A program made the translations under genes and the position numbers. Below, piece after piece: positions 149 through 63,975 of a DNA stretch of 64,000 nucleotides. Source of the stretch: Ophiura sarsii (lineage: Eukaryota; Echinodermata; Ophiuroidea; Amphilepidida; Ophiuridae); contig CM069446.1 of the NCBI GenBank assembly GCA_035610835.1, positions 67,875,062 to 67,939,061 of the forward strand. The letters run 5' to 3'. A model generated the notes under the pieces. It searched no databases, had not been told where the DNA came from, and saw only the letters and a list, made by a program, of their open reading frames with translations. Numbering within the stretch: position 1 is the first letter of the stretch; every line of letters begins with the position of its first letter.

Positions 149-737
149 TGTGGTATAAACAAATTAACAGCTTTATGTCCTGATTTGTGCATTTTACACC
201 ATCTAAGATTCGAATTAGCATATCGCAATAATTACTTGTTCTACCCCATAACAAGTATATAACTTCTGAAAGGAAATCTCACAAAGAATCCGAATATGAT
301 ATTGGAATTTAGATATGACCTAATGCTTACATGTTTTGAATAAGAATGTTAAACGACAATCGATTTTTGTTTCTCCATATTTTGATTAAAGATCAATAAT
401 ATTTTGATGCCTATTCCAATCATAATGTTACTGTGCATAATTGTTCCTCGTGCAATTACCCATCAAAACATAATGGTTGTCAAGGGTAACTTGTTGAAAT
501 ATACTATATCGGGAAGTGAATGAGCATAAACGTTTAAATTTCATATTTTTTAGAGTTTACAAATATATTGGATTAGGTATGAACCCGATCCAGATTTAAA
601 TGCCATTTTTGAATTCCCCGATTTGAGAGCTTTACAAAAATGTATGATTTTGCTATCATCGGTTTAATACTTTTTTGTTATATTCATGTAAGTAAAACTG
701 ATGAATTATGGCAATTTATTTGTGTAGCGAATAGGGA
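149..737. other. non-coding flank, nothing recognised
   Basis: The first ~25 bases match the flank of the block B exon (to about 35920); then the two blocks diverge. The rest is AT-rich with no gene, RNA or clear repeat boundary that I can support. Confidence 0.5.
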
Positions 738-1299
738 GAAATACAATACAATACAATACAGAAAGCATTAATTGCGCCATTTCCAAAAGGCTCAGAGCGC
801 TTACAAGATAAAACCTTAAAATTACAACTTAAACTACAAAATGTGAGTGTAACTTGAGCATAGTACGTACAATATATTATAGCAATTACAAAATAGATTA
901 GAAACAAAATATAAACAGAAAAACTGTTTAAGGGAACAAATGAGTTTATGGAGCTTTTTTAAACACACTTGTAGATGATGATTGTCTAATACAGATAGGT
1001 AGCTTATTCGACTCTTTTGACGCACAAACTGTGAAAGTTCTATCACCAGCTAGAACTCTAGTGATAGGGTATTGAAGACGTAGATAGTCATTAGAAGATC
1101 GGAGTGGTCTCTTTGGAACATATAATGATAAACAATTTGACAAGTAGATTGGTCCTTGGTTATGAAGACATTTATAAACACACAGAAGTAATTTAAAGAT
1201 GATCCTTTGGCGTATTGGAAGCCAATGCAGTGATTTTAAAAGCCAATGACAATGCAATCGATTCATGATTACAATTGTAACATGATAGTTTACACGTTT
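738..1299 (-). mobile_element. 5'-truncated L2/CR1-type LINE, 3' end
   Basis: On the minus strand an open frame carries the reverse transcriptase C-terminal signature of jockey/CR1/L2 elements (LHWLPIRQRIIFKLLLCVYK, followed by an RSS.. stretch and a GDRTFTV motif). The 3' UTR contains a GCGCT-rich stretch and ends in a short tandem repeat, TGTAT repeated four times (740-760 on the plus strand), the usual tail of this group. The body stops near 1299, exactly where an unrelated tandem duplication begins, so it is truncated. Non-autonomous remnant. Confidence 0.75.
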
Positions 1300-2531
1300 G
1301 TTAAAACCATGGAAGAACGATAGAATATAAAACAATCTATAAAATGAGAGCAAAATCATGTTTGTTCCATACAGGGATGAGGAGTTATTGTAAATTGAAC
1401 GTAGAATTGGGAACATATTCTATATTCCCCATAGAGATTGTACACAGCGCAAACCGCCACCGCAGCCACCGCCACCACCCCTGACTTTCGAAATATAATC
1501 AATCATATCTCAGACAAACAGTTATAGAAATAGCTGATTTATTCACACAATGTAGCTATATAAACAGGCTTTCGAATGACACCTAAGCCATGATAGCTCT
1601 ACCACATTTAGTTGTTGAGTTAAACAGAGAGAGATGGATGATTCGTCACCAAAAATGCAACGCCACCACCCTTTTTGGGTGGTGACTGGTGAGTTCAAAA
1701 CACGTGGCCTTATAATACTATACCCCGCTTTGTAGAGATATACACCTAGCACAAAAAGTCCCTGGCCAGGCGTTTTGATGTTGGCTAATCCAAAATCTGA
1801 GATATACATTTCATGAACACATTTCTTCTACGTAGTTTGATACCTCATTCATAAAAAACGAGTGGATATTGTTGATGTTATGATTGTTTAATCGACCACA
1901 ACTACCAACTCAGTTCTTGCACTAAAATTGGTTAAAACCATGGAAGAACGATAGAATATAAAACAATCTATAAAATGAGAGCAAAATCATGTTTGTTCCA
2001 TACAGGGATGAGGAGTTATTGTAAATTGAACGTAGAATTGGGAACATATTCTATATTCCCCATAGAGATTGTACACAGCGCAAACCGCCACCGCAGCCAC
2101 CGCCACCACCCCTGACTTTCGAAATATAATCAATCATATCTCAGACAAACAGTTATAGAAATAGCTGATTTATTCACACAATGTAGCTATATAAACAGGC
2201 TTTCGAATGACACCTAAGCCATGATAGCTCTACCACATTTAGTTGTTGAGTTAAACAGAGAGAGATGGATGATTCGTCACAAAAAATGCAAGGTGAGTTC
2301 AAAACACATGGCCTTATACTATACCCCGCTTTGTAGAGATATACACCTAGCACAAAAAGTCCCTGGCCAGGCGCTTTGATGTTGGCTAATCCAAAATCTG
2401 AGATATACATTTCATGAACAAATTTCTTCTACGTAGTTTGATACCTCATTCATAAAAAACGAGTGGATATTGTTGATGTTATGATTGTTTAATCGACCAC
2501 AACTACCAACTCAGTTCTTGCACTAAAATTG
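1300..2531 (+). repeat. tandem duplication, two ~0.6-kb copies
   Basis: Copy 1 is 1300-1930 and copy 2 is 1931-2531, both starting GTTAAAACCATGGAAGAACG. They are nearly identical except that copy 1 has about 30 extra bases around 1661-1690 (CCACCACCCTTTTTGGGTGG). The end of the unit (about 1810-1930) is related to 5262-5375, and the segment 1731-1806 occurs in inverted form at about 5477-5562, so the unit contains dispersed repeats. Open frames inside are short and run through repeats. Confidence 0.8.
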
Positions 2532-7949: not shown

Positions 7950-10900
7950 GAAAGGATATGACGGTCAGATAATCCTTTTTTTTATAAATAATTAAAATAT
8001 TTCAGTTTTAACAATTATACATGTGATGTTTGGAATTTGTGATGGCCATGCAGAATTTTCAAATGGCGTCCATCATTAAACTTATCAGAATTTAGTCTCT
8101 CAGATACTTCTTTGTTAAAAAAGTGAAGGAAAGAAACATAATCGTTTTCTCATTCCTGTATGTAACGTTTGATAGTTGGGTTGATTTTCCAACTCAACGT
8201 TTTAAGGATAAATAATTAATTGTTAGCAACACATGCTATGATTGGAATTTTTAAAGGCCATGTAATGTAAAAAAGAATGTGCGGGGTTTGTTTCAAATAA
8301 TGTATAAGTGTTAAAAATGTTAAGGACAAAGATATTATGATTTTCCTATGACTGTTTATAGCATTTAATCATTGGGTTGATTTAAAGATAAACACACTTA
8401 AAAAGATTTCGTTTGTTCAAATATTTCTTAAATGTTAAAAAAATGTCGTTTTCATGCCTGTATACATGGTATATAGCATTTAATAATTTTGGATTGATTT
8501 TCCAACTCAATGTTTTAAGCATAAAATATTTCATTTTTAACAACATATGTGATTTTTTATATGTGATGATTGGAGTTTTTGATGGCCATGCAGAATTTTC
8601 AAATGGCGACCATCATAAAACTTATCAGAATTTAGTATCTCAGATATTTCTTAATATGTTAAAAAAGTGAAGGAAAGAAACATAATCGTTTTCTCATTTC
8701 TGTATATAACGTTTAAACAATGGGTTGATTTTCCAACTCAACGTTTTAAGGATAAAATAATTAATTTTTAGCAACACATGCGATGATTGGAATATTTGAT
8801 GGCCATGCAGAATTGGCAACTCGTGTCAACCATACAACTTAAGCATAATGTGTGGGTTCTTTTTCAAATATTTCCTCTAAGTGTTAAAAATGTAAAGGAA
8901 ATTATGATTTTCTCGTGACTGTTGAAAGCATTTAATTATTGGGTTGATTTAAGGATAAACACACTTTGAAGTGTTTTAAAACAGACTTCGTTTGTTCAAA
9001 TATTTCTTAAATGTTAACAAATGTGGTTTATCTCATGCCTGTATATAGCATTTAATAATTTTGAATTGATTTTCCGAATCGTTTGAAGGATAAAAAATAC
9101 AATATTTTATTTTTAACAACACGTGTGATGATTAGAATTTTTATTGGCCATACAGAATTGTCAACTCGTGTCTAACATACAATTTAAGCAGAATGTGTGG
9201 TTTTTTCAAATATTTCCCAAGTGTAAAAAGTGAGAAAATAAAAATAATCGTGTTCTCATTCCTCTATGTAACGTTTAATCGTTGAGTTGATTTTCCAACT
9301 CAACGTTTAAAGGATATATTAATTCGTTTTTAACAATGATGATTGGAATTTTTGATATCCATGCATAATTGGCAACTCGTGTCCAAGATACAACTAAATC
9401 AGAATGTGTGAGGCTTGTTTCAAATAATGTATAAGTGTTAAAAATGTTAAGAAAAAATATATTATGATTTTCTCATGGCTGTTTATAGCATTTAATCATT
9501 GGGTTGATTTAAGGATAAACACACTTAAAAAGACTTCGTTTGTTCAAATATTTCTTAAATATTAAAAAAATGTCGTTTTCTCATGCATGTATATAGCATG
9601 TATATAGCATTTAATAATTTTTGAATTGATTTGACAACTCATCCTTTGAAGGATGAAAAATATAATATTTTATTTTAAATAATATTTTTAATAAAACATT
9701 ATATAATTTTTGATGGCCATGCAGAGTTGTCAACTCGTGTCTACCATACAACTTAAGTAGAGTGTGTGGGGAGTGTGTGGGGTTTTTCAAATATTTCTCA
9801 AGTGTTAAAAATTGTAAGGAAAGAGATATTATGGTTTTCACAATGCAGAACTCTGGAATAATATTCCACTTCATGTGAAAAATGCAGAGACTATATTTCA
9901 GTTTAAGAAATCCTTAAAGACTCATTTGTTCACAAAGGCTTTTTAATTGTAGTCCATATCCATGTATTTGTTTGTTATTATGTTTTTATGTTAAAGCGCT
10001 TAGGGATCTCGATGTTAGGCGCTATACAAATATGGTTATTATATTATATATATTATTATATTATATATTATATATATTATATTATATTATATTTATTATA
10101 TATATAGCATTTAATCATTTGGGTGAATTTTGGATAAAATAATTCCGTATTATTCAATTTTTGATGGCCATGCAGAATTGGCAAATTGTGACATCATAAA
10201 ATGTATGCAGAAATCTCTTTTTCTTCAAAAAATCTTAATTGTTCAAAATTTAAAGGAAAGAAAAAATATGATTTTCTCATGGCCGTACAATGTATATAGA
10301 ATTAAATAATTGGGTTGATTTAAGTATAAGTTAATTCCATTTTAACAACACATGTGAAGTTGGGAGTTCTTGATGACCATGTCGAACTATAAAATGTAAT
10401 CATGATTTGCTCTTTCAATATTTCTTAAATATTACAAAATGAAGGAAAGAAAAAAATAGGATTTTGTTATGCTTGTATATAGCATTAACGCAACGTTTTA
10501 AGAATGAAATATTTCAATTTTAACAGCACATGTGATATTTGGAATTTTTGATGGCCATGCAGAATTGGCAAATCGTATCCATCAGAAAACTTCAGCAGAA
10601 TGTGTTCTTTCAAATATTCCTAAATATTAAAGAAATTGAAGGAAAGACAAATTATGGTCTTCCCATGCATGTATAGCATAACTTTGGGTTGATTTTCCAA
10701 CTCAATGTTTTAAGGATAACTATTTCAGTTTTAACAAAATATGTGATGTTTGGAATTTTGGATGGCCATGCAGAATTGGCAAATCGTGTTCATCATAAAC
10801 CTTAAGTAGAATTTGTTTGTTTTTCTTCAAATATTTCTTAATTATAAAAAATGTTAATGATAGACAAATGATGGTTTTCTCGTGTGCATGTATATAGCAT

Positions 10901-12605
10901 TATTTGTTATTTTGAATATTTCCTAAATGTTAAGAAAGTGAAGGCAAGAAAAGGTATGGATGTCCCATGTCTGTATATAGCATTTCATAATTTTGAGTTG
11001 ATTTTCCAACTAAACGTTTTAAGGATGAATATTTCAGTTTAACCAACATATGTGATGTTTGGAATTGTTAATGGCCATGCAGAATTGACAAATCGTGTTC
11101 ATCAATAACCTGAATCAGAATGTGTTTGTTTTTCTTCAAATATTTCTTAATTATAAAAAATGTAAAGGAAAGACAAATTATGGTTTTCTCGTGTGCATGT
11201 ATATATAGCATTATTTGTTATTTTAAATATTCCCTAAATGGTAGGAAAGTGAAGGCAAGAAAAAGTATGGTTTCCCGTGCCTGTATATAGCATTGAATAA
11301 TTGTGAGTTTATTTTCCAACTCTACGTTTTAAGGATAAATATTTCAGTGTTAACGAAGCATGTGATATTTGGAATTGTTGATGGCCATGCAGAATTGACA
11401 AATCGTGTTCATCAATAACCTGAATCAGAATGTGTTTGTTTTTCTTCAAATATTTCTTAATTATAAAAAATGTAAAGGAAAGACAAATTATGGTTTTCTC
11501 GTGTGCATGTATATATAGCATTATTTGTTATTTTAAATATTTCCTAAATGGTAAGAAAGTGAAGGCAAGAAAAAGTATGGTTTCCCGTGCCTGTATATAG
11601 CATTGAATAATTGTGAGTTTATTTTCCAACTCTACGTTTTAAGGATAAATATTTCAGTGTTAACGAAGCATGTGATATTTGGAATTGTTGATGGCCATGC
11701 AGAATTGACAAATCGTGTTCATCAATAACCTGAATCAGAATGTGTTTGTTTTTCTTCAAATATTTCTTAATTATAAAAAATGTAAAGGAAAGACAAATTA
11801 TGGTTTTCTCGTGTGCATGTATATAAAATTATATAGCATTATTTGTTATTTTAAATATTTCCTAAATGGTAAGAAAGTGAAGGCAAGAAAAAGTATGGTT
11901 TCCCGTGCCTGTATATAGCATTTAATAATTGTGAGTTTATTTTCCAACTCAACGTTTTAAGGATAAATATTTCAGTGTTAACGAAACATGTGATGTTTGG
12001 AATTGTTGATGGCCATGCAGAATTGACAATTCGTGTTCATCAATAATCTGAATCAGAATGTGTTTGTTTTTCTTCAAATATTTCTTAATTATAAAAAATG
12101 TAAAGGAAAGACAAATTATGGTTTTCTCGTGTGCATGTGTATATATAGCATTATTTGTTATTTTAAATATTTCCTAAATGGTAAGAAAGTGAAGGCAAGA
12201 AAAAGTATGGTTTCCCGTGCCTGTATATAGCATTTAATAATTGTGAGTTTATTTTCCAACTCAACGTTTTAAGGATAAATATTTCAGTGTTAACGAAACA
12301 TGTGATATTTGGAATTGTTGATGGCCATGCAGAATTGACAAATCGTGTTCATCAATAATCTGAATCAGAATGTGTTTGTTTTTCTTCAAATATTTCTTAA
12401 TTATAAAAAATGTAAAGGAAAGACACATTATGGTTTTCTCGTGTGCATGTGTATATATAGCATTATTTGTTATTTTAAATATTTCCTAAATGGTAAGAAA
12501 GTGAAGGAAAGAAAAAGTATGGTTTCCCATGCCTGTATATAGCATTTAATAATTGTGAGGTGACTTTCCAACTCAACGTTTTAAGCATAAAATAATTCAT
12601 TCTTA
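7950..12605 (+). repeat. satellite array, ~210-bp monomer and ~310-bp variant (block A)
   Basis: Tandem units share GATGGCCATGCAGAATTG, CAACTCAACGTTTTAAGGAT and TGTATATAGCATTTAATAAT. In the left part many units are ~210 bp (for example 8580 to 8801, 10161 to 10371, 10549 to 10760). From about 10760 onward the period is ~310 bp (GATGGCCATGCAG near 11069, 11379, 11690, 12008 and 12319) because each unit contains a second, diverged copy of the TTTCAAATATTTCTTAA..GCATT portion. These last units are almost identical, showing recent homogenisation. Open frames crossing the array simply repeat with the unit and are not genes. Confidence 0.9.
9838..10110 (+). mobile_element. LINE 3' tail inserted in the satellite
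   Basis: The frame NAELWNNIPLHVKNAETIFQ, running on to a stop at about 9945, is the extreme C-terminus of an L2/CR1-type ORF2. It is followed by a 3' UTR with AAGCGCTTAGGGATCTCG..GGCGCTATACAAATATGGTTA and a TATTATA-type short-repeat tail to about 10108. Severely 5'-truncated. The satellite continues on both sides. Confidence 0.8.
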
Positions 12606-12959
12606 ACAACACAGTTCAGTTCAGTTCAGTTCAGTTCAGTTTTATTTTCACCATATTACATGATACATCAGACAAGCAAATTTTAAGAAAATATAGGTGG
12701 GGAAAACCAAAAGGAGCACAGCTCGAAATATATTGGTCACCCTGATAATTTCATAATAAATATGATAGTTTAGAAGTACTACAAAGAAGACGACTACAAA
12801 CAAAAGACAGGACAGGAAATGTGTAAACAAGACCGGACAGGACATGTGCAACTAAACACTAAAGTGTAGGCAGTAATGATGGCATCAGCTATAACATGAT
12901 AATAATTATCTCATGTGGTAAAATTTCTCATGTGGTAAACTTTACAAATGACTAATTGA

Positions 12960-15900
12960 TTATTGGTAATATGAAAGAAGATATAACTTAAACTTCCTTT
13001 TAAAAACATATGGTGATTTGGCATTTTTAAACTTGCTATTCACTGAATTCCATAGCAGAGGGCCTTGTCTTCTTATCGTATGTCTGGCTAAATCATAGTT
13101 AAAATTAAAGGGACGATATAATGAAGAAATGCGTGTTGGGTAGCTATGGATTGATCTATTTTTAATGAAATAATCGGTAAAAGTATCGGGAAGATTGTTG
13201 AATGCGTGATTATACATAAATAAACAAAGAGTCAGCTTGTGAATATCATAAATTGTCAGGGTATTAAACTTCTTAAATAACGGCGGGGTATGCTCAAGCC
13301 AGTGAGAATTCGAGCATAGTCTCATAATTCGTTTTTGTTTAAGGTGGATTTTGTGGAGATTGGTGTTATTTGAATCTGCCCAAATCAAATTACAATAAGA
13401 CAAATGGGGAATCACAAGAGTATTGTATAATGAAAATAATGTATTGGAGGGGAGAATATCTTTAAGGCGATACATAATGCCACAATACTTGGACAAAATA
13501 TTAACAACATTTGAAGTATGCTTTGACCAGGTTAGAGAATCATCTAGAAGTACACCGAGAAACTTTGTATATGAAACCCTAGATATTTCAATTCCATCAA
13601 TACAAATATTCAAATCATTGTACACACGATTACTGTGTCTGTTTTTAAAGATGATATAATTGGTTTTATCAATATTCAACGACAACTTATTGGCTTTAAA
13701 CCATAATGACATATTATCTAATTCCCGGTTAACAGTAGTAATTAAATCAGGAAGGTTGGCATGTGATACAATAACATTGGTATCGTCTGCGTAAGTTACA
13801 AAAGTAAGTTCATCAGAGGAGAAAGCAATGTCATTTAAGAAAATAATAAAAAGTAAAGGACCTAAGACTGAACCCTGTGGCACACCACAAGATATATTAC
13901 GGTATGACGACTTATGATTATTGAAGCAAACATACTGAGACCTATGAGAGAGGTAACTCTTGAACCACTCGAAGGCACTTCCTCTGACACCATAATGGTG
14001 AAGTTTTGCAAGAAGAATGTCATGGTTAATGGTGTCGAAGGCCTTCGAGAGGTCCAGGAAGATTCCCATTGTATGTAACCCTTTATCGAGGTCTGCAGCG
14101 ATCTTATCATATGTGTTAAGGAGTGCCATGTAAGAAGAGAGTTTTTTTCTGAATCCAAATTGACAGTTATGAAGCAAGTTATGGCGTTCAAGAAAATCAT
14201 ATAATCTTTTATGAATGATTTTTTCAAAAATTTTAGAAAACACGGGTAAAACTGAAATAGGACGATAATTATTACATAAAGTAGCATCACCAGATTTGTG
14301 AATGGGAACTACACGTGCAACTTTAAGTTCATCCGGAACAATACCTGAACTTATAGACAAATTGATAATATGAGATAATGGCTTTTTAATATGATTACAA
14401 ATGGTCTTCACAATGTGTGGTTTAATGTCATCGAAACCACTGCTAGTACCAGTTTTGAATGAGGAACAAATATCAACGACTTCCTCACCATCAGTTGGAG
14501 ATAAGAAGAGAGAATTCATTGGTGAGGGAACTGAAGTGAGAAAGTCGCTGACATTTTTAGGAGTAAAAGGAATTTTACTAGCTAAATTAGGACCAATATT
14601 AACAAAGAAATCATTTAGGCCATCGGCAATTTGTTGTGAGTCAGAGACAATAGAACCGTTAATAACAAAAGAATCGGACAAAGACTTCTTCCTTCTGTTT
14701 CCCAAAAGATCATTCAGGATACCCCAAGTCTTTTTAAGGTCGCGTTTATGCTCATCAAGCAAGTTACAGTAATACTGCTTTTTAGATGCACGTATAATGG
14801 TAGTCAGCTTGTTCTTATAGTCCGACAATGCACGCTTTTTGGAAGCAGTTTGTGAAGATCTGTACTTCCGATATAGTTTGTCCTTTCTGTTGATAGACTT
14901 GAGGATTGCCTTGGTGATCCATGGTTTCTGAGGAAAGCCTTTAGCCTGAGATATACGCTTATACTTAACAGGAAAAGATCGATTATACATATCATTGAAT
15001 TTTGTTGCAAAATTAGAATAAGCATTCGTGGGAGAAGAATCATTCATAATATGATCCCAATCAGTTAGTTGGAGCAAATTCTTAAAACATCTAATATTAT
15101 CCTGGTTAAATGAACGACAATTTATATATTTGGGACTGTGATTGATGTTTAAATCAATACAGTCTGTAACTTGAAAAACAGGATAGTGATCAGTTATGTC
15201 ATTAACAAAAATGCCCGACTTGATCTGCTTACTAAGAACATTGGTGAATATATTATCAAGAATAGTAGCCGAGTTTTTGACGATACGCGTAGGTCGATCT
15301 ATGAGAGGAAACATATCATGAGAATAGAAATTGTTCACAAAATCATTAACCTTGTTGTCGGTGTCATATTGAAGAATATCAAAATTAAAGTCGCCGGAGA
15401 TATAGCATAATTTATTTTCAAGTGATATACGATCTAAACAGTTCGACAGATCGGAATTAAAAGAATCAACATCTGTGCGATGGGCACGGTACACATTACC
15501 AATTATAATATTTTTGGAATACCGACATATTATTTCAACAAAAACGGATTCGGAGTGATCTATATCATTTCGATCAGTTTGAATCAAATTTAAATCAGGT
15601 CTAACTTTGAATGACAACGAATTATGAACATAAAGAGCAGTGCCACCACTTCTTCTATCTTGCCGAGGAATACTTATTAAATTATAATTAGAAATGTCGA
15701 TACTGTTGTCCTTAAACCAGGTCTCGGACAATGCAATTATCGAAAAAGTGAAATTCAAATTTGAAATGAATGAATTAACGAGATCCTGATTCTTATTAAA
15801 ACTACGGACATTTAGATGTAGAATTGAGAACCCTGATTTAAACGACAAATTAAAGTCAGATGATGGATCAAACACGTAGTTGCAAGAATTTGATGTGCTA

Positions 15901-16217
15901 AGATTTTGAAGATAATCATGCGACCTATCATTGATACCGACTTCAAATAAGAATGGATTGAACTTTAAATCTAACAACTTATTGTAATCATGTGAATTGT
16001 CAAAGTAACGTATAGTAAATAGAAATTCACCATCATCAAGAATATGATTAAAAGGAAAAATATCACCAGAGCATTTACTACAAAACCAATTATTGTCATC
16101 AAGATTACCATAAACACATCTTTTATGATACATACATCTACAGAACTTACATTGAATAGACTTATTGCAATTCGCATTATAAATACACTTACTACATTGA
16201 TTACACTTAACCATCAC
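12960..16217 (-). CDS. LINE ORF2: PHD-like finger, endonuclease, reverse transcriptase
   Basis: 1085 residues, intact. Residues 5-49 form a PHD-like zinc finger (Cys5/Cys8, a further Cys at 11 or 17, Cys23/Cys26, His31/Cys34, Cys46/Cys49). An AP-like endonuclease follows: LHLNVRSFNKN, SETWF, GDFN near residue 275 and ITDHYP. The reverse transcriptase has NNYRPISVLPVFSKIFEK, LDLSKAFDTINHD near 720, GVPQGSVLGPLLF, and the catalytic YADD near 808. The C-terminal region ends with the YPTR..LWNSVNSKFK type motif of the CR1/L2 group. The protein would nick target DNA and prime reverse transcription from the cut (target-primed reverse transcription, family knowledge). The N-terminal PHD-like finger in ORF2 rather than ORF1 is worth noting. 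No frameshift or stop was seen. Confidence 0.93.
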   Translation of the reverse strand: MMVKCNQCSKCIYNANCNKSIQCKFCRCMYHKRCVYGNLDDNNWFCSKCSGDIFPFNHILDDGEFLFTIRYFDNSHDYNKLLDLKFNPFLFEVGINDRSHDYLQNLSTSNSCNYVFDPSSDFNLSFKSGFSILHLNVRSFNKNQDLVNSFISNLNFTFSIIALSETWFKDNSIDISNYNLISIPRQDRRSGGTALYVHNSLSFKVRPDLNLIQTDRNDIDHSESVFVEIICRYSKNIIIGNVYRAHRTDVDSFNSDLSNCLDRISLENKLCYISGDFNFDILQYDTDNKVNDFVNNFYSHDMFPLIDRPTRIVKNSATILDNIFTNVLSKQIKSGIFVNDITDHYPVFQVTDCIDLNINHSPKYINCRSFNQDNIRCFKNLLQLTDWDHIMNDSSPTNAYSNFATKFNDMYNRSFPVKYKRISQAKGFPQKPWITKAILKSINRKDKLYRKYRSSQTASKKRALSDYKNKLTTIIRASKKQYYCNLLDEHKRDLKKTWGILNDLLGNRRKKSLSDSFVINGSIVSDSQQIADGLNDFFVNIGPNLASKIPFTPKNVSDFLTSVPSPMNSLFLSPTDGEEVVDICSSFKTGTSSGFDDIKPHIVKTICNHIKKPLSHIINLSISSGIVPDELKVARVVPIHKSGDATLCNNYRPISVLPVFSKIFEKIIHKRLYDFLERHNLLHNCQFGFRKKLSSYMALLNTYDKIAADLDKGLHTMGIFLDLSKAFDTINHDILLAKLHHYGVRGSAFEWFKSYLSHRSQYVCFNNHKSSYRNISCGVPQGSVLGPLLFIIFLNDIAFSSDELTFVTYADDTNVIVSHANLPDLITTVNRELDNMSLWFKANKLSLNIDKTNYIIFKNRHSNRVYNDLNICIDGIEISRVSYTKFLGVLLDDSLTWSKHTSNVVNILSKYCGIMYRLKDILPSNTLFSLYNTLVIPHLSYCNLIWADSNNTNLHKIHLKQKRIMRLCSNSHWLEHTPPLFKKFNTLTIYDIHKLTLCLFMYNHAFNNLPDTFTDYFIKNRSIHSYPTRISSLYRPFNFNYDLARHTIRRQGPLLWNSVNSKFKNAKSPYVFKRKFKLYLLSYYQ

Positions 16218-16647
16218 ACTGCCAACTTTGTACTTCTAAGGCTACACACGAATATATTTATGAGTGCAAAAACAAAGGAGGGGAAAAGAAAGATTTAATA
16301 TAAAGAGTTTTGTAAAAATAAAAATAAAAACTCGGGAGGGAAGAATGAATGGGGACACGTCCAGCACAAACAAAGGATTAATTCAAAGGACACTGAAAAT
16401 GATGCACACAAAATATACTAAGTTCGACCTCAAAACATAACATAAATAGAAGGGTCAAATAGAAGGCGAATCTTCCGCACGAGGGCCAATGAGAATCATT
16501 GTCAAATAACGTCATAATTATACAGAGAACGAAGACCAAATGCATTTGAATGATGGAATATGTATGACAGTTCAGCACAAACAAAAAATAAAGTTTTATT
16601 TGAGTTTGTTTGTATTTGTACGGGGGCAGAGTTACTTGGTAGTCAAG

Positions 16648-17343
16648 TTAAAATCCTAGATCAGTAAATGCTTTCGGATCATAAAGTTTGCCATCTATGA
16701 ATAGCTTCACTGTAATTCCTGTGGTCTTAATGGTGGCCTTCTTTCCTACTGAGACTGCTCGGTGCTTGATAGGTAGTAGCTTTCGACGCTCTTGTTGCAT
16801 CTGCATAGGTAGGTGAGGACTGATTCCAAACTTTGTCGTCGAGTTTTTCAGTTTAAACGCCATCTTGAGGACAGAATCGCGGTCTTTCATTAACACAAAC
16901 TTTACTATGATGGGTTTAGGGTTGGAGTTTGTTGATCGGGTTGGCAGTCGATGTACATTTGCCAATAACATAGTGTTAGCTTTATCATGTGTTAGTTCTT
17001 TACTTAAGAACTCTCGAATAACTGCTTCACAATCTTCATCACGGGTTTCCCTCACGCCATAAAAGAGAAGGTTCGCTCGTTTGCTATATAGTTCGGTGGC
17101 AACACGTTCTTGTTTCAATTTATCTATTTCGCCGGATAGTTGATTTCGTAACTGGGGTATTATGTCCACTTTAATATCTGTAATATCTTTATCTAGCGAT
17201 TCAACACTGAGCTTAAGATCTGTCACATCTGTGTTTAACTCTTTCAGTTCGGATTTCATGTTGTCGATCTGCATTGATAGGGCAGCAAAATTTTGCTTGT
17301 TTTCATCTCTCATGGTGAGGAGGAGCTGCTTCATTTCATCCAT
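16648..17343 (-). CDS. LINE ORF1: coiled-coil / RRM-type RNA-binding protein
   Basis: 231 residues. Residues 1-85 are a heptad-rich coiled coil (MKSELKELNTDVTDLKLSVE and following). Residues ~90-175 carry an L1-ORF1p-like RRM (SKRANLLFYGVRETRDED, then a PIIVKFV strand). The C-terminal part has HLPMQMQQERRKLLPIKHRA, typical of the ORF1 C-terminal domain. Such proteins form trimers that coat the element RNA and act as chaperones (family knowledge). The frame is intact and lies 430 bp upstream of ORF2 in the same orientation. The start Met at 17343 precedes the coiled coil directly. Confidence 0.88.
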   Translation of the reverse strand: MDEMKQLLLTMRDENKQNFAALSMQIDNMKSELKELNTDVTDLKLSVESLDKDITDIKVDIIPQLRNQLSGEIDKLKQERVATELYSKRANLLFYGVRETRDEDCEAVIREFLSKELTHDKANTMLLANVHRLPTRSTNSNPKPIIVKFVLMKDRDSVLKMAFKLKNSTTKFGISPHLPMQMQQERRKLLPIKHRAVSVGKKATIKTTGITVKLFIDGKLYDPKAFTDLGF

Positions 17344-17797
17344 GATTATAAATTTGATAAAAAGTTAGTACAGGTGACAAATTACTGAATTTAGTCTGTA
17401 ATCTGCTAAGGAGCGTGTAAACAGTTGAGTGAGCGTGTCAGGTAGCGTTACAGAACGTACAGCAGTGCATACGATACAAGTCTATAATAACCTCCGCAGA
17501 GCACAAATCAATGGGAGTCACCCACGCGTGAAAACAAACAGCTTGAATATGGCGGGTACTGAATCATACACATGACGAGTGTTCTATACAGCACAGTATA
17601 GCAGGAAAGTGAATCCAGAATTCACTAATTTATGCAATATTTATAGTGTTATTTGACATACCAGTGTGATGATATTGTTCACTGTGATTAGGAGAAGATT
17701 GTCCATGTTTCATAGTTCAAATACACATGCTGACATGCTAGCCACTACGGTTGTTTCCCTCACTTCCAAGAGCTACGTGTTGTTGTGTGTAGCCGCC

Positions 17798-27354: not shown

Positions 27355-27449
27355 CTAGGTGAGTAAATATAATGTAGTCTTGAAAAGGTTAGCGAATATA
27401 ACCGCATATATATATTTAATAATATCAAATAAAACACTTTTTATTTGGC

Positions 27450-27495
27450 AGTTTGCTACCTTGGGTTTCTCGCTTACGCGATCGTCAGGCAAACT
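27450..27495 (-). ncRNA. type I hammerhead ribozyme (solitary)
   Basis: Minus strand, 5' to 3': stem I strand AGUUUGC, core CUGACGA, stem II UCGC with GUAA tetraloop and GCGA, core GAAA, a two-base-pair stem III (CC-CAA-GG), cleavage triplet GUA, then stem I strand GCAAACU. Stem I is 7 bp and stem II 4 bp, both perfect, and every invariant core base of the hammerhead is present. The very short stem III matches the minimal hammerheads known from Penelope-like elements and animal retrozymes (established knowledge). Predicted cleavage falls between 27457 and 27456 on the minus strand. Activity is inferred, not shown. Confidence 0.88.
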
Positions 27496-27821
27496 AAATG
27501 TTTTCCTTCCATACAACGAAGTCAGTGAGAAAAATATTCCCAGTACGCGAATAATACATATTTTGAAATATTTTTGGATACCAGATCATTTAGAGTAAAA
27601 TCCGGCATATCCTTTGTATAAGCTATAAACTAGTGTAAAGACCCCATTACAATACACTAATTAAGTAACAGTTTAAATGTTAAAGCATTGCCGCCTATTT
27701 CTTGAATACAACTTTATTTACCAGATTGCGTATTCATTGTTGTTAGAATCACATTCCTACCCATAGCGAAAAAAAGGTTACCGGGTGACTACCTAGCCGG
27801 TACCTTTCCGATGCCTCAAAT

Positions 27822-37529: not shown

Positions 37530-40500
37530 CTTTTTTTATAAATAATTAAAATATTTCAGTTTTAACAATTATACATGTGATGTTTGGAATTTGTGATGGC
37601 CATGCAGAATTTTCAAATGGCGTCCATCATAAAACTTATCAGAATTTAGTCTCTCAGATACTTCTTTGTTAAAAAAGTGAAGGAAAGAAACATAATCGTT
37701 TTCTCATTCCTGTATGTAACGTTTGATAGTTGGGTTGATTTTCCAACTCAACGTTTTAAGGATAAATAATTAATTGTTAGCAACACATGCGATGATTGGA
37801 ATTTTTAAAGGCCATGTAATGTAAAGAAGAATGTGCGGGGTTTGTTTCAAATAATGTATAAGTGTTAAAAATGTTAAGGACAAAGATATTATGATTTTCC
37901 TATGACTGTTTATAGCATTTAATCATTGGGTTGATTTAAGGATAAACACACTTAAAAAGACTTCGTTTGTTCAAATATTTCTTAAATGTTAAAAAAATGT
38001 CGTTTTCATGCCTGTATACATGGTATATAGCATTTAATAATTTTGGATTGATTTTCCAACTCAATGTTTTAAGCATAAAATATTTCATTTTTAACAACAT
38101 ATGTGATTTTATATATGTGATGATTGGAGTTTTTGATGGCCATGCAGAATTTTCAAATGGCGTCCATCATTAAACTTATCAGAATTTAGTCTCTCAGATA
38201 CTTCTTTGTTAAAAAAGTGAAGGAAAGAAACATAATCGTTTTCTCATTCCTGTATGTAACGTTTGATAGTTGGGTTGATTTTCCAACTCAACGTTTTAAG
38301 GATAAATAATTAATTGTTAGCAACACATGCTATGATTGGAATTTTTAAAGGCCATGTAATGTAAAGAAGAATGTGCGGGGTTTGTTTCAAATAATGTATA
38401 AGTGTTAAAAATGTTAAGGACAAAGATATTATGATTTTCCTATGACTGTTTATAGCATTTAATCATTGGGTTGATTTAAAGATAAACACACTTAAAAAGA
38501 TTTCGTTTGTTCAAATATTTCTTAAATGTTAAAAAAATGTCGTTTTCATGCCTGTATACATGGTATATAGCATTTAATAATTTTGGATTGATTTTCCAAC
38601 TCAATGTTTTAAGCATAAAATATTTCATTTTTAACAACATATGTGATTTTTTATATGTGATGATTGGAGTTTTTGATGGCCATGCAGAATTTTCAAATGG
38701 CGACCATCATAAAACTTATCAGAATTTAGTATCTCAGATATTTCTTAATATGTTAAAAAAGTGAAGGAAAGAAACATAATCGTTTTCTCATTCCTGTATA
38801 TAACGTTTAAACAATGGGTTGATTTTCCAACTCAACGTTTTAAGGATAAAATAATTAATTTTTAGCAACACATGCGATGATTGGAATATTTGATGGCCAT
38901 GCAGAATTGGCAACTCGTGTCAACCATACAACTTAAGCATAATGTGTGGGTTCTTTTTCAAATATTTCCTCTAAGTGTTAAAAATGTAAAGGAAATTATG
39001 ATTATTATTTTTCTCGTGACTGTTGATAGCATTTAATCATTGGGTTGATTTTAGGATAAACACACTTTTTAAGTGTTTTAAAACAGACTTCGTTTGTTCA
39101 AATATTTCTTAAATGTTAACAAATGTGGTTTATCTCATGCCTGTATATAGCATTTAATAATTTTGAATTGATTTTCCGAATCGTTTGAAGGTTAAAAAAT
39201 ACAATATTTTATTTTTAACAACACGTGTCTAACATACAACTTTAAGCAGAATGTGTGGTTTTTTCAAATATTTCTCAAGTGTAAAAAGTGAAGGAAAGAA
39301 ACATAATCGCGTTCTCATTCCTGCATGTAACGTTTAATCGTTGAGTTTATTTTCCAACTCAACGTTTAAAGGATATATTAATTCATTGTTAACAACGCAT
39401 GCGATAATTGTAATTTTTGATAGCCATGCAGAATTGGCAACTCGTGTCCAAGTCCAAGATAAAACTAAATCAGAATGTGTGAGGCTTGTTTCAAATAATG
39501 TATAAGTGTTAAACATATTAAGGAAAAATATATTATGATTTTCTCATGGCTGTTTATCGCATTTAATTATTTAGTTAATTTAAGGATAAACAAACTTAAA
39601 CATATTTCATTTGTTCAAATACCTCTTATATGTTAAAAAAATGACTGTATATAGCATTTAATAATTTTGGATTGATTTTCCAACTCAACATTTGAAGGAT
39701 AAAATAACTAATTTTTAACAACAAATTTGATGATTGGAATTTTTGAAGGCCATGTAGAATTGACAACTCGTGTCCATCGTACAACTTAAGCAGAATGTGA
39801 GGCTTGTTTCAAATATTTTATAAGTGTTAAAAATGTTAAGAAAAAGGATATTATGATTTTCTCATGACTGTTTATAGCATTTAATCATTGGGTTGATTTA
39901 AAGATAAACAAACTTAAACAGACTTCGTTTGTTCAAATACCTCTTAAATGTTAAAAAATTGTGGATTTTTCATGCCTGTATAGCATTTAATAATTTTGGA
40001 TTGATTTTTTCAACTCAACGTTTGAAGGATAAAATAATAATTTTTTAACAACAAATGTGATGATTGGAATTTTTAAAGGCCATGCAGAATTGTCAACTCG
40101 TGTCCACCATACAACTTAAGCAGAATTTGTGGGGTTTGTTTCAAATAATTTATAAGTGTTAAAAATGTTAAGGAAAAAGATATTATGATTTTCTCAGGTA
40201 TATATAGCATTTAATCATTGGGTTGATTTAAGTATAAACAAACTTAACTTAACTTCGTGTGGTCAAATACCTCTTAAATGTTAAAACAAATTGTGGGTTT
40301 TTTTCATGCCTGTATATAGAATTTATCAATTTTGGGTTGATTTTCCAACTCAACGTTTTAAGGATAAAATAATTCATGGTTAACAACACACGGGATGATT
40401 GGAATTTTCAATGGCCATGCAAAATTGTTAATGTGTGGGGTTTTTTTCTTCAAATATTTCTTAAGTGTTAAAAAATGTAAAGAAAAGAGATATTATGATA

Positions 40501-40835
40501 TTCTCATGAATGTTTATAGCATTTAATCATAGGGTTGATTTAAGGATAACCAAAACTTAAGCAGACTTCGTTTGTTCAAATATTTTGGGTTGATTTTCCA
40601 ACTCAATGTTTTAAGGATAAATATTTCAGTTTTAACAACACATTTAATGTTTGGAATTTTTGATGGCCATGCATAATTGGCCAATTGTGTCCATCATAAA
40701 ACAGAATTTGTGTTTTCAAATGTCAAGGAAAGATAAATTATGGTTTTCTCATGCCTGCCTGTATTTAGCATTTATAATCTTGGGTTGGTTTTCCAACTCG
40801 TATTTTTGATGGCCATGCATGGCGAAATGGCAAAT
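37530..40835 (+). repeat. satellite array (block B)
   Basis: The same ~210-bp family as block A. A 540-bp compound unit present once in block A (8041-8580) is present twice in tandem here (37597-38136 and 38137-38676 approximately), pointing to unequal exchange after duplication. Repeated open frames beginning MFKYFLNVKKMSFSC are products of the repeat. Confidence 0.88.
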
Positions 40836-58951: not shown

Positions 58952-59305
58952 CTGACAAAAAAAGTTTGATTGACTTCTGCAAGGACTGAAATTAATTACT
59001 GGTGTGGAATCTTCAGGGTTCCTACGTACCATCTATTGAAACAATTCATTTTTTCCAAATTTCATTTTTCTCGGCAATCGATCAGTGCCCTTTAAAATTG
59101 CCATTTCTTTCGCCCCTCGCGGGAAATTAATTTCATTGTTCCATCAATTAAACTAGAATAAGCTCAATTTGTCGGGCGATTGTAAAACACGTACACGCAT
59201 GCGCGCGTACGTACGCACGTACGATTGATCATTCTGTATTCTCCCTACTACTTGTACCATTTATTATTTGTAATGCAATACAAGGTCAGATACGTGACCT
59301 GAGGC
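58952..59305 (+). repeat. 354-bp direct repeat, copy 2
   Basis: Identical as far as I can read to 54123-54476 (offset 4829 bp, no indels). Its right end abuts the first base of the virus-like segment. Confidence 0.92.
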
Positions 59306-60409
59306 ATTAAAACTTCATCATTTGTAAAATGTTCAACGTGATGGTCTATGAAATGTTGAACTATTTCCATTTTTGTTAAGTTCTCTGTTGTAAAGACTAA
59401 TAATACCTAATTGCTTAATTACTATACCTATATTAACTAATCTACTAGAATTAATATTATGTTGTCCCATTTGTTCACCATTTATCCACACAGAAAGTTT
59501 ATTTTTATTATATTGAAAACTAAAATGATTAAGCTGTGTGATGTCTACAATGTGGGTTATAGCATTTTCATTAGTTATAACATTATCAGTAATTGCATAT
59601 TTAAAGCTTTTTTCTGTCCACAACATTGATAGAGATTTAAGTTTGGTTAGTAGGGTTAACAAATATTAAAATGGAACTATTGTTTTCTAATGGTGGAGAC
59701 TTTCCAGGTCGTGCTGAAAAGAACAAAGTCCACGGTGCTGAAAAAAGCTGCGGAGTAAAATCAATATTAAGTCTAGAGTTTAATTGCATAAAACCTAAAC
59801 CATTTAATATACCATGATTGGGTTTGGTAGCAAAGTTATATCATAAGATGTTGCGATCATTTGTGGACTGTTATTAATGTAGCTTCATTGCTACCTTCAT
59901 TGCCGTGTTAGATTTCATCCTGAAGTCCTCTATCCAAATTGATTTTTTGTCTTGCTCTAACGGAGATGTATGCTTTAGTACCATCATCTTCAGGTAGTAC
60001 AAGATATATTACTAAAACTTTTTGGCCTGGTATTATGTTCGTGTTGTTCTAAACTATGTACGTATTATTATGAATTTTTCGTTTATTTACAGCGTCTGTC
60101 TCGTCCACAGGGTCTCCAATTTCTTTGATTGTGTTGTAGTTCATTATAATATTTCCTGTCATTGTTCCACCAGCTTTGCTTAATTTTTCTGTATTGAGGC
60201 GTGATATTAAATCTGAAACAAACCTGGCAGTCGCGGGCATGATGTCTTTGACTTGGTTCACCTAAATTGATAATTTTGTGTTTCCCCATATCGAGGTTTT
60301 GTGTATCATGTGTATGTTGGATATTATTACTAATGGTGGTTTTTTTTAAATTCTGGATAACCCCAAAGGGGTGAGTGAGCTCTGTGATTAGATTTGTATA
60401 TGATTCCAA
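59306..60409 (-). pseudogene. fibre-like protein of a virus-like element, frameshifted
   Basis: Minus-strand fragments in different frames: near 60409-60260 MGKHKIINLGEP, near 60261-60060 SKAGGTMTGNIIMNYNTIK with GDPVDETDAVNK, and near 59640-59340 a segment with NKNKLSVWINGEQMGQH and ISLYNREL. The first two are repeat motifs of trimeric tail-fibre proteins (the GGTMTG..GDP..DAVNK type); the last resembles the end of a LamG-like jelly-roll. At least three frame breaks are visible, so it is an old, inactive copy. Assignment to a Polinton/adintovirus-like element rests on motifs and neighbours only. Confidence 0.5.
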
Positions 60410-60761
60410 GTTATATGGATCTTTATATTGATACCATCAATGGTTATAATAATTTGATTGTAATTGCATCAGAGGATTTACAATTAGGTCTGAATAATAA
60501 AGTTAACAAGATGAACAACCAATTGCACAATTTGATTCACCTCCAGAATTTGATTTGCCTCAAAAAGTTGATTTACCTGAAGAATTTGATTTACCTCAAA
60601 AAATTGATTTACCTCAAAAATGTAATCCACCACTGGAAGTAGACGATTCAAAAATTAAAAGTAAACTTACACAAGATGAACTTACACACGATGAACAAAA
60701 GTTATTACTTATTATAGGAGGTGCCATTATTAGCACTGGTGTTATTTGGTTTTTGAACTAA
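60406..60761 (+). pseudogene. proline-rich membrane-anchored protein of the virus-like element
   Basis: An early segment in one frame (YNNLIVIASEDLQLGLNN) continues after a break near 60510 in another frame as degenerate repeats of DLPQK/DLPEEF, then KLTQDELTHDEQ and a C-terminal hydrophobic segment LLLIIGGAIISTGVIWFLN, a single predicted membrane anchor followed by a stop. It is divergent from the fibre-like gene, whose start it overlaps. One frameshift is evident. Function unknown. Confidence 0.45.
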
Positions 60762-61830
60762 AATTGATTTTTGAACTAAAGTTAATAAGAATTACAAGCA
60801 TTCATAAATGTTCAGCCACAAATCCAACAGTTTTTAATACAAAACTTATAACGCTGCCTATAATTCCAGGTAATATATGCTACTAACATTTTTTCTCCTA
60901 GTTTTAAAAGCAATGTAGCTATGTTTTGAAGTGGAGGTTTTATCCAGCCTTTGACACCTGGTTCAGGTTTTGGATTTGGATTTGGATTTTGTTTTGGATC
61001 TGGTTTGGATTTGGACTTGGCTTAGGATTTGGACTAGGATTTGGACTTGACTTAGGACCAGCTCCAGTAGCTAACAAAATGTTCTTGTTTGCTTTCGCGT
61101 CCACCAATAAGGTGCTTAACAGCTGTTCTCATATATCCAAGTGAACGGTCTAATCCAGCTAATTCACGAAAAGGTAATGAGCCTTCAGGATCAAGTTGAA
61201 GTTCTGTTTGAGCTCCAGCTTCAGGACCAAGCTGAAGTTCTGTTTGAGCTCCAGTGTCTAGAAACTTATTTAGTTTTGTTTCAACTCTTTGTACATCGCG
61301 TAGTTCGATGTTTTCCTGAGTACTAACTGCGATGTCATTTTTTATTTCATTTAGCGCTTGTCGTTGTTTTGGTGGTAATTCTGGTTTAGCATTTTGGGTA
61401 TATATAGTTTATAACTCCAAGAACATCTCTAACAAAAGCAACACCACCCTCACCATATTGTCTCGCTACGGTACTAAGTGCAAGATAATTATTTGGATTT
61501 TTTTTATCTGTCAGCCTAATTCTTTTACCATCATATTTAACATAAACCTGCTTTGTTTTTGGATCTTTTGTAATGAATCCCCCAGACTCCAAAAATATTT
61601 TTTATCAAAATTATACCCTTTTTGTAATACATTTTTATAAAAGTCAATTACTGCTTGAGCATTTACATTAGCAGAAAGCTCAGTCCCAGGTGCATTTGGC
61701 AAATTACTAAATGCTGTGTCTACTTGGGTTTCTTGATTAGTATTTTGATCAAAAGAACCATCATCTAAATTAACGTTAGTAGGTTCATCAAAATCATCAA
61801 CTTCATTTAAATGAACCTCTGTTAAAATAT
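60735..61830 (-). pseudogene. structural-type gene of the virus-like element, several frameshifts
   Basis: Consecutive minus-strand segments in shifting frames: LSANVNAQAVIDFYKNVLQK (about 61670), YVKYDGKRIRL then NYLALSTVARQYGEGGVAFV (about 61540-61420), PPKQRQALNEIKNDIAVST (about 61375), two TGAQTELQLGPEA-type repeats (61200-61260), a Pro-Asn repeat (60960-61060), and LPGIIGSVISFVLKTVGFV (about 60875-60805), a hydrophobic end. The order and the lack of stops within each piece argue for one original gene of about 350 residues. I cannot name it. Four or so breaks make it non-functional. Confidence 0.45.
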
Positions 61831-61880
61831 ATATATATATATATATAAAAATTCAAAGTTTAGACCTTCCGAGAAAGGGA

Positions 61881-61923
61881 GTCGTTACTCTGAGTTTCAT
61901 GCTTAACGCAATCGTCAGACGAC
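61881..61923 (-). ncRNA. hammerhead ribozyme, repeat unit 1
   Basis: Minus strand: stem I GUCGU / ACGAC (5 bp), core CUGACGA, stem II UGC-GUUAA-GCA flanked by a U-U mismatch, core GAAA, stem III CU-CAG-AG (2 bp), cleavage triplet GUA. Predicted cut between 61886 and 61885. Same order and same minimal stem III as the hammerhead at 27450. Confidence 0.82.
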
Positions 61924-62235
61924 AAGGATACTGATTGTGTGACTGGTTACCCCTAGACTAGATTAGGATGCATACACTTTCAATGGTGTTTAATCACTGA
62001 AAGTGTATCACACTTCTCTAGCCCGTAAGCCAACCAGACCATTTTCTCAGGACCGGTCTAAAAGCTTCGAGATAGCTTAAAAGTGCTCAACTGATAAAAA
62101 GTCAGGAGCATAACATAAAATGTCATGAACATCGAATCGATTTCATGGGCAGACTATCTTTCGAATCAAAGTGCTCAATTCCAATAAAGGAAGAGCTATA
62201 TAAAAATTCAAAGTTTAGACCTTCTGAGAAAGGGA

Positions 62236-62278
62236 GTCGTTACTCTGAGTTTCATGCTTAACGCAATCGTCAGACGAC
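62236..62278 (-). ncRNA. hammerhead ribozyme, repeat unit 2
   Basis: Sequence identical to unit 1 over the 43-nt motif, 355 bp away. Predicted cut between 62241 and 62240 on the minus strand. Confidence 0.82.
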
Positions 62279-62590
62279 AAGGATACTGATTGTGTGACTG
62301 GTTAACCCTAGACTAGATTAGGATGCATACACTTTCAATGGTGTTTAATCACTGAAAGTGTATCACACTTCTCTAGCCCGTAAGCCAACCAGACCATTTT
62401 CTCAGGACCGGTCTAAAAGCTTCGAGATAGCTTAAAAGTGCTCAACTGATAAAAAGTCAGGAGCATAACATAAAATGTCATGAACATCGAATCGATTTCA
62501 TGGGCAGACTATCTTTCGAATCAAAGTGCTCAATTCCAATAAAGGAAGAGCTATATAAAAATTCAAAGTTTAGCCCTTCCGAGAAAGGGA

Positions 62591-62633
62591 GTCGTTACTC
62601 TGAGTTTCATGCTTAACGCAATCGTCAGACGAC
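62591..62633 (-). ncRNA. hammerhead ribozyme, repeat unit 3
   Basis: Identical 43-nt motif, again 355 bp on. A substitution nearby (GCCCTT for GACCTT at about 62572) lies outside the ribozyme. Confidence 0.82.
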
Positions 62634-62945
62634 AAGGATACTGATTGTGTGACTGGTTAACCCTAGACTAGATTAGGATGCATACACTTTCAATGGTGTT
62701 TAATCACTGAAAGTGTATCACACTTCTCTAGCCCGTAAGGCAACCAGACCATTTTCTCAGGACCGGTCTAAAAGCTTCGAGATAGCTTAAAAGTGCTCAA
62801 CTGATAAAAAGTCAGGAGAATAACATAAAATGTCATGAACATCGAATCGATTTCATGGGCAGACTATCTTTCGAATCAAAGTGCTCAATTCCAATAAAGG
62901 AAGAGCTATATAAAAATTCAAAGTTTAGACCTTCCGAGAAAGGGA

Positions 62946-62988
62946 GTCGTTACTCTGAGTTTCATGCTTAACGCAATCGTCAGACGAC
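62946..62988 (-). ncRNA. hammerhead ribozyme, repeat unit 4 (partial unit)
   Basis: Complete motif in the truncated unit at the 5' end of the minus-strand array. The array ends only about 8 bp upstream of its stem I, so a transcript entering from the right would meet a ribozyme almost at once. Confidence 0.82.
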
Positions 62989-62999
62989 AAGGATACTTG

Positions 63000-63263
63000 T
63001 CATACTTTTTATATAGTTCTGTTTGGGTTTTAACTCAAAAGTACAATTCAGTTTTAACTGACTTTAGAGAGCGAATAAAATGGATAGCATTGTTTTACTG
63101 TAAAGATAAAGATAGGCTTGTTGAGGCATTACGCGAAAATGATGTAATACAATCAACAGAAAAGCAAAAAGAAATGCGTGATAAATTAGCTAAACATAAA
63201 CATTCTAAATTAATTTTGACAACTGAACAGCCAACACATTTGTATTGGGAAAAATGTTATTAA
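63000..63263 (+). pseudogene. possible packaging-ATPase C-terminus of the virus-like element
   Basis: The open segment includes FRERIKWIALFYCKDKDRLV, RDKLAKHKHSKLI and a terminal WEKCY. The general plan (a W/F-ALFYxKD stretch, a charged helix, then KHSKLIL) recalls the C-terminal part of FtsK/HerA (A32-like) packaging ATPases of Polinton- and NCLDV-like viruses, but the Walker motifs would lie in sequence that is absent here. The apparent start lies inside the retrozyme array and is not real; the gene was truncated by it. Low certainty. Confidence 0.3.
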
Positions 63264-63975
63264 AAGATATATGATTACTGAAATATATAAGCTTACTAAT
63301 ATTATATTAAATATTTATGCTATAATAATTATGATATGGTTAGTTGTAAAAATGTATCAAATAAAAAAATGTTTTAATTATGTGACAGTCTTTAACTTAC
63401 ACACCCTAGATGACAGGGCCAGGATGTTTACTCAGCATCTGTGCTGTCACTCACCACTGGCAAACCACATGTTTGACCAGCACTCTGCCTAAATCACAAC
63501 AAATCCACAATGCTCATACTTTTCCCATATTTTATATCCCAACGGGTACAGGTAAGCCAAAGATCTTTAATTATATTTGTAGTACTTAAGTTTAACTATC
63601 ATTTGTGATAATTATGTACTGTAACTCTCAGTTTTAGGCCCAATCTAGCTCTGTTTAGATCCAAGTTTGCTCATGATTTGCTACACTAAAACAAAGCAAT
63701 GTGTGCCTAGACTCTATGCACAGATACTGGGGTCAATGACAAATACAGTGTGGTTTACCATGACTCTCTAGGAGTTACAAATCTGTGTTTATAATATTTT
63801 AGACAGCACTGGTATTTGATTTTAATTAGTTTAATATTAGCCAACAAATGTAAATGAGTAAATGTATTATTATTAGGTGTAAACTATTTCTATGAGAATG
63901 TTCTATCGGTTACAATTTCAATTAGTAAATATGATCGTAGGCGCTTGCGATTGGTAAAGATACATGTACTTACTA
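63264..63975. other. unassigned right end
   Basis: A small hydrophobic open frame (63271-63410) could be another remnant of the virus-like element. From about 63390 the composition changes and nothing is recognised. Confidence 0.35.

Follow-up and report, generated by a model that had tools for sequence, protein, structure and literature searches.

What is the tandem array of hammerhead-bearing repeats in this stretch of Ophiura sarsii DNA, and how did it come to lie there? The window analysed here (the whole stretch of 64,000 nucleotides from contig CM069446.1) carries the array at 61842-62997, where TRF resolves 3.3 copies of a 355-bp period with 99% matches, that is, three full 355-bp units with partial ends. 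The sequence-only reading that raised the question had proposed an animal retrozyme array with an exact 355-bp period, three full units and a partial fourth, all of which TRF and the sequence bear out; its bounds of 61847..62996 needed correction to 61842-62997. Our answer, to which we give a probability of roughly 0.7, is that the array is one insertion of a non-autonomous element, made when a Penelope-like enzyme cut the target and both of the resulting ends served to copy a single RNA circle. The kind of element, a metazoan retrozyme, is already known; the insertion mode is the new part.

The unit and its hammerhead motif

We numbered the unit in RNA sense from R1 to R355, with R1 (62240) the base after the predicted cut and the third full unit in RNA sense (61886..62240, minus strand) as reference R. 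The features used below are as follows.

61842..62997, minus strand: whole retrozyme array in RNA sense, with its 5' end at R309 (62997), three full units and its 3' end at R44 (61842), from TRF, segment mapping (locus L001) and the sequence
62596..62950, minus strand: full unit R1-R355, first in RNA sense
62241..62595, minus strand: full unit R1-R355, second in RNA sense
61886..62240, minus strand: full unit R1-R355, third in RNA sense, reference R
62946..62988, minus strand: hammerhead motif, predicted cleavage between 62951 and 62950
62591..62633, minus strand: hammerhead motif, predicted cleavage between 62596 and 62595
62236..62278, minus strand: hammerhead motif, predicted cleavage between 62241 and 62240
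61881..61923, minus strand: hammerhead motif, predicted cleavage between 61886 and 61885
61842..61848, minus strand: site A (R38-R44, TTATATA), putative reverse-transcription start and the end used at this locus, from the 3'-end pile-up and flanks; recurs within the array at +355, +710 and +1065
62110..62116, minus strand: site B (R125-R131, directly after GACATTTT), second putative start, internal at this locus, from the 3'-end pile-up and flanks; recurs within the array at +355 and +710
61826..61841, no strand: (TA)n tract adjoining the array 3' end, from which R41-R44 are indistinguishable

The units are nearly identical (unit 2 differs from unit 1 at two positions and unit 3 at four), have a GC content of 0.394 (39%) and code for nothing: the longest stop-free stretch on the 355-nt circle is 61 aa, there is no long ORF, and the reverse transcriptase (RT) plus GIY-YIG ORF of an autonomous Penelope-like element (PLE) is absent. 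Short reading frames lie on both sides of the array (59300-63500 of the window), and a Pfam search of six reading-frame pieces from this region returned no families.

An identical 43-nt motif occurs at four places on the minus strand, once in every full unit and once in the partial one, spanning R318-R355 and R1-R5 and reading GTCGT-CTGACGA-TTGCGTTAAGCAT-GAAA-CTCAGAGTA-ACGAC, with CUGACGA, GAAA and GUA in the order first noticed. Stem I has the 5 bp and stem II the 3 bp (UGC/GCA) initially read, the latter above a U-U mismatch at the stem base that we add here, while stem III has 3 bp rather than 2 when A15.1-U16.1 is counted (AU, CG, UA). The type I hammerhead core (CUGANGA, GAAA, stems I-III, UH cleavage site) is thus present in every unit, with a weak stem II, and cleavage is predicted after GUA (before ACGAC), between R355 and R1. 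Scanning the window for the core letters with stems I and III, stem II being optional, recovered the four array motifs and one other at 27448-27496; the same scan of the reversed window gave none. That other motif is a second hammerhead, with stems I, II and III of 8, 4 and 3 bp, inside a short dispersed element on the minus strand at 27406-27549. The genome has at least 44 matches to it (40 of 395 candidates scored), most of the dispersed ones starting at 27549 and ending near 27420-27406, which suggests a hammerhead element of 130-145 bp whose 5' side is fixed.

A check against the Rfam hammerhead models, which had been proposed for the minus strand, failed to support the motif: neither at the gathering level nor at E up to 10 was there a hammerhead match in the array. 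The same search on nine loci with other hammerhead motifs likewise gave no hammerhead match, even for locus L093, whose stem II is long, G-C based and well paired; the Rfam test is therefore insensitive here, and we do not count the negative for the array as a refutation. Comparison among motifs is the stronger argument for a ribozyme. We tabulated 13 motifs from the sampled loci and from strings of a genome search; the table is a selection, in which four motifs are given without stem I letters, point variants have no entries of their own, and strings lacking a plausible stem II (one at L065, the pair C1:5903949 and C1:5967892, and C1:9607589) are left out. Across these 13 the core is kept and stem II varies in sequence and length with its pairing preserved (e.g. 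UGC/GCA, UGGACAA/UUGUCCA, CGAC/GUCG), its base being U-U in 8 and a base pair in 5. A generic U-U pattern matched the genome 3123 times, against 72 for the backwards pattern, and its G-C version 965 times, against 25; neither pattern demands stem II. The core was also sought in viral contigs, with no matches. In the lowest-energy fold of the 355-nt circle some hammerhead pairs are missing, and forcing all of them costs 5.4 kcal/mol. The axolotl hammerhead HHR_Amex2, which also has U-U at the base of helix II, is described in PMC7229834 as showing weak cleavage when monomeric and stronger cleavage when dimeric, and by analogy we would predict weak monomer cleavage for the array unit.

Other repeats lie elsewhere in the genome and the window. 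A sister family (L074 1091-1871, L059, L040 and L046) is 73-81% identical to parts of the unit, has a repeat period of about 337 bp in L074, and carries a hammerhead whose stem II is long (UGGACAA/UUGUCCA) and likewise has the U-U. Two satellite arrays in the window, at 10603-12607 and 39349-40582, have 310- and 330-bp periods and look related to each other through a common stretch, ATTTTCCAACTCAACGTTT; scanning both for hammerheads found none.

Copies in the genome

Searching the genome (1.57 Gb in 748 contigs) for further copies, as had been suggested, yielded 465 matches to the 43-mer at up to 3 mismatches and none to the backwards pattern. Among these 465, the places listed are the first ones, exact matches on contigs C1-C7, and a further search for copies scored 40 of 1414 candidates. 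From 98 loci we dropped 23 as repeats of the same place, leaving 75, which comprise 112 aligned segments of at least 88% identity (segments below this were left out of the end counts) in 85 insertion groups when joined over 40 bases, or 84 when joined over 60. The segments range from partial units to 10.3 units. Some loci look like later-duplicated copies (two in L039; L069/L070; L074/L075; possibly L042/L043), so that the counts below are not all independent events.

Two fixed 3' ends and the insertions they bound

Where do these copies begin and end? In RNA sense, 88 of the 112 segments from the 75 sampled loci have their 3' end at R38-44 (54 segments) or R125-131 (34 segments), where 4.4 would be expected by chance; only 6 of 112 5' ends fall in the same 14 of 355 positions. 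This polarity is evidence, independent of the motif, that the hammerhead strand is the transposing RNA. Both sites contain ATTTT(T)AT and lie 82-85 nt apart on the unit (R41/R44 to R126), the spread reflecting the uncertainty caused by the (TA)n flank. Beyond sites A and B the first 20 flank bases are 87% and 91% A+T, against 63% in far flanks, and (TA)n is common among them. The 5' ends are scattered, with pile-ups at R311-319 (28/112) and R34-36, and many 5' joins lie in TA- or T-rich surroundings and resemble microhomology. The pile-up at R311-319, just before the hammerhead, is partly an artefact insofar as most loci were found by a motif that starts at R318; candidate causes are the start of a transcript, a stop imposed by structure and TA microhomology, besides, in part, this way of finding loci. 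Genome-wide counts of short patterns (760 across the cut, 473 for R318-R353, 203 for R165-R200) are confounded by sister families and variants, the first pattern apparently being common to sister families and the last lowered by subfamily variants, and so are silent on a 5' pile-up at R1.

Some of the insertions are two-headed. We found 24 head-to-head joins and no tail-to-tail join within 60 bases, and wherever both outer 3' ends could be classified, one was A and the other B (15/15, or 16/16 with the three-piece L065; the chance of 15/15 if ends were drawn independently is 1.4e-5). In 9 of the 24 joins at least one 3' end lies outside both sites. Non-simple duplications of at least 8 bp flank 10 of 84 groups, two of these ten being duplicate copies of one insertion (L039), compared with 0.65 on average, and never more than 4, over 20 shuffles. 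The readable duplications measure 8-17 bp, bases shared with the element ends included. Four of the ten surround A/B two-headed insertions (L044, L061, L071 and L076) and thereby show the two halves to be parts of a single event. At the array in the window, one side of which is the (TA)n tract, no informative target duplication was found. The inner head-to-head joins of L044, L061, L076 and L036 lie near the 5' border of the hammerhead, where the stretch TCGTC-GACGA is nearly self-complementary and might aid the joining of two cDNAs.

These ends bear on whether the array is ordinary satellite DNA, amplified at the DNA level by unequal crossing over or extrachromosomal circles and scattered by chance, with the hammerhead as decoration. 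Tandem, non-coding, AT-rich and near-identical units are what such a history would give, but the fixed and polar 3' ends (88/112) with varying 5' ends, and the duplications around head-to-head halves, are not, and we consider the satellite explanation very improbable. The distribution of variants among units, described next, also speaks against it.

A probable single template per insertion

If both halves and all units of an insertion were copied from one circle, they should share variants. We took 21 subfamily sites (R53-R306), each with variants occurring in 4 or more loci, and compared adjacent units within an array: 3 of 896 comparisons were discordant, against 258.1 expected from the pool. 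Five further shared-variant sites beside site A (R32-R46), first left out of this test, were discordant in 17 of 272 comparisons, with 18.8 expected; our post hoc judgement is that these reflect either changes that arose repeatedly or noise from aligning the AT run, and with all 26 sites the figure is 20 of 1168 against 276.9 expected. Full concordance (20 sites) was seen in 40 of 42 adjacent unit pairs vs 368 of 2511 pairs between loci. The halves of two-headed inserts were fully concordant in 13 of 14 loci, vs 36 of 172 between loci, at R53-R306 without R127, which was dropped because it lies at an insertion end; this test left out L039 and loci with fewer than 3 shared sites, and its one exception is L042, with differences between the halves at 4 of 9 sites. 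Restoring R127 gives 8 discordant comparisons out of 167, of which R127 itself accounts for 4, and the full set of 26 sites gives 11 out of 246, spread over 7 of 24 loci.

The longest sampled array, L097, has a single private difference in 3650 positions over its 10.3 units, and in arrays with sites seen in at least 4 units all nine variable sites (9/9) are single-unit changes, so that no stepwise spread is seen, on what are few sites; stepwise spread is what the satellite explanation would call for. The sequence-only reading had ascribed the near identity of the units to recent formation or homogenisation. The near identity stands, but in view of the shared variants and concordant halves it is better explained by one-template copying than by later homogenisation. 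A single circle copied by both primers is, most simply, what the shared variants suggest.

A PLE enzyme might instead copy linear multimeric transcripts of existing arrays, with the hammerhead incidental to the choice of template. In vitro, an anole PLE with a mutated hammerhead is still able to insert, and its RNA serves as substrate mainly in unprocessed form, as reported in PMC11167929. Among the minor bases within our arrays, 19 of 50 are also found in another locus (several lying in the AT run close to site A), which would fit a linear multimer template from a young homogeneous array. Many short copies span the predicted cut, implying a template uncut there, but this count is biased, the loci having been found by the motif, and a circle also predicts copies spanning the cut. 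Near-perfect identity over 10.3 units (1/3650) needs, moreover, a step from monomer to multimer, which a circle provides. Linear templates therefore seem to us unlikely, and we retain the single circle.

Which enzyme?

PLEs are abundant in this genome, where at least 149 GIY-YIG matches passed the cut-off among the 150 candidates scored out of 1426, and a search with a PLE protein returned many copies with open frames of more than 900 aa. Many copies have uninterrupted frames of about 924 aa with near-equal scores, perhaps a young PLE family; the PLE protein of Amphiura filiformis, the best organism-named match, reaches at best 62% identity in this genome. In one PLE family, the eight best-scoring copies have their 3' ends beyond the ORF, at one or other of two positions separated by 76 nt: CAATA in 3 of 8 (short) and CACCATTA in 5 of 8 (long). 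Scanning the eight sampled PLE loci (L099-L106, mostly 3' parts) for hammerheads found none, and the unit shows no real similarity to them (best matches 17 and 12 nt, E 3.4). In one of them, L105, a 548-aa open frame (150-1794, plus strand) combines an SRCR domain (residues 50-139) with the GIY-YIG end of a PLE, through chance fusion or capture.

Published PLEs have head-to-head pLTRs and 8-10-bp target-site duplications (TSDs), and one of their inverted ends may bear a tail of 31 bp, as given in PMC3846280. For the inverted junctions that paper discusses self-priming on an antisense template; we infer instead that they arise from priming on both DNA ends. According to PMC11167929, PLE reverse transcription starts internally at two sites, with both strands extended, on AT-rich DNA. 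The unit's insertions are built like those of these GIY-YIG PLEs: head-to-head inverted ends, a tail on one side and a TSD are all found, together with two internal start sites, AT-rich targets and, by implication, the cutting and extension of both DNA strands. The tail is longer here (82-85 nt, as opposed to 31 and 30-40 bp in published PLEs), and the two ends use different sites, whereas in the anole PLE assay of PMC11167929 the start site was equal on both DNA strands. Unlike GIY-YIG PLEs, the retrozyme unit codes for nothing. Its insertions work like PLE inserts, but it is not a PLE.

Target-primed insertion with 5' truncation is also LINE-like, and a LINE-type non-LTR enzyme could in principle mobilise the retrozyme in place of a PLE. 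The window itself contains an open frame of 1091 aa (12960-16235, minus strand) that includes a reverse transcriptase domain (RVT_1), and a 238-aa frame on the same strand at 16648-17364 may be the first ORF of that element. Against LINEs, none of the 112 3' flanks has an A8 run in its first 12 bases, and the resident PLE family has two 3' ends 76 nt apart. PLEs as portrayed in PMC3846280 and PMC11167929 show the two-ended inserts, one-sided tail, TSDs near 8-10 bp and AT-rich targets that are seen here. A LINE-type enzyme is, in our judgement, a decidedly unlikely source, and the evidence points to a Penelope-like one.

Comparison with known retrozymes

Judged by its sequence, the array is a metazoan non-LTR retrozyme, as defined in PMC7229834 (Cervera and de la Pena 2020). 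The 355-bp unit is short (within about 150-450 bp), low in GC and non-coding; dispersed copies and multimers abound (465 copies, up to 10.3 units in the sample); and TSDs exceed 4 bp where duplications are readable (10/84 groups). With its type I hammerhead and co-resident PLEs, this upholds the original proposal of an animal retrozyme array. The metazoan retrozymes described in PMC7229834 (350-390 bp in mussel, 330 and 350 bp in axolotl) similarly have one type I hammerhead per short, low-GC tandem unit, TSDs of more than 4 bp when present, and PLEs in the same genome, and the U-U at the base of helix II recurs in axolotl HHR_Amex2. Expression, cleavage and circles have been demonstrated for them; for the unit here cleavage and circles are predicted from the sequence. 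Plant LTR retrozymes, as described in the same paper, share the hammerhead, the circular RNA (predicted here) and the non-autonomous habit, but differ in their type III hammerheads, LTRs, 600-800-nt circles and 4-bp TSDs.

What this genome adds is the fixed A and B ends, the two-headed inserts and the one-template test, which PMC7229834 does not describe; its main text makes no mention of inverted, truncated, head-to-head or microsatellite. The open-access literature searched yielded no description of two-ended, two-site retrozyme insertions. Autonomous PLEs have been named as likely retrozyme helpers on the basis of co-occurrence and shared hammerheads (PMC7229834, PMC7761336), and a 2020 review states that metazoan retrozyme repeats have no conserved motif revealing the mobilising retrotransposon (PMC7761336).

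A model for the insertion

We propose that a minus-strand transcript of an array would be cut at each hammerhead after GUA and that a host ligase would close the 355-nt monomer into a circle. A PLE endonuclease/reverse transcriptase would cut both strands of a target that is AT-rich and often (TA)n, and the two exposed DNA 3' ends would prime on the same circle at two internal positions, site A (R38-44) for one and site B (R125-131) for the other. By travelling round the template several times, each polymerase may produce identical tandem units. The two cDNAs would then meet head to head, or one of them would be attached straight to the target, in many cases through TA-rich microhomology, leaving a short duplication around the insert (8-17 bp in readable cases). 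A more specific version, which we put at slightly short of even odds, has the PLE enzyme (perhaps as a dimer) hold one circle and hand A and B each to one DNA 3' end of the staggered cut, so that both strands are copied at once in rolling fashion and joined head to head.

For retrozyme biology, the anatomy of the insertions points to PLE machinery and yields two start sites, and variants shared within arrays are genomic evidence for one template per array, most simply one circle. For PLE biochemistry there follows a prediction: on a single RNA, copying from one DNA end should begin at a different site from copying from the other. If true, this two-primer, single-circle mode would explain why PLE and retrozyme insertions carry a tail on exactly one side.
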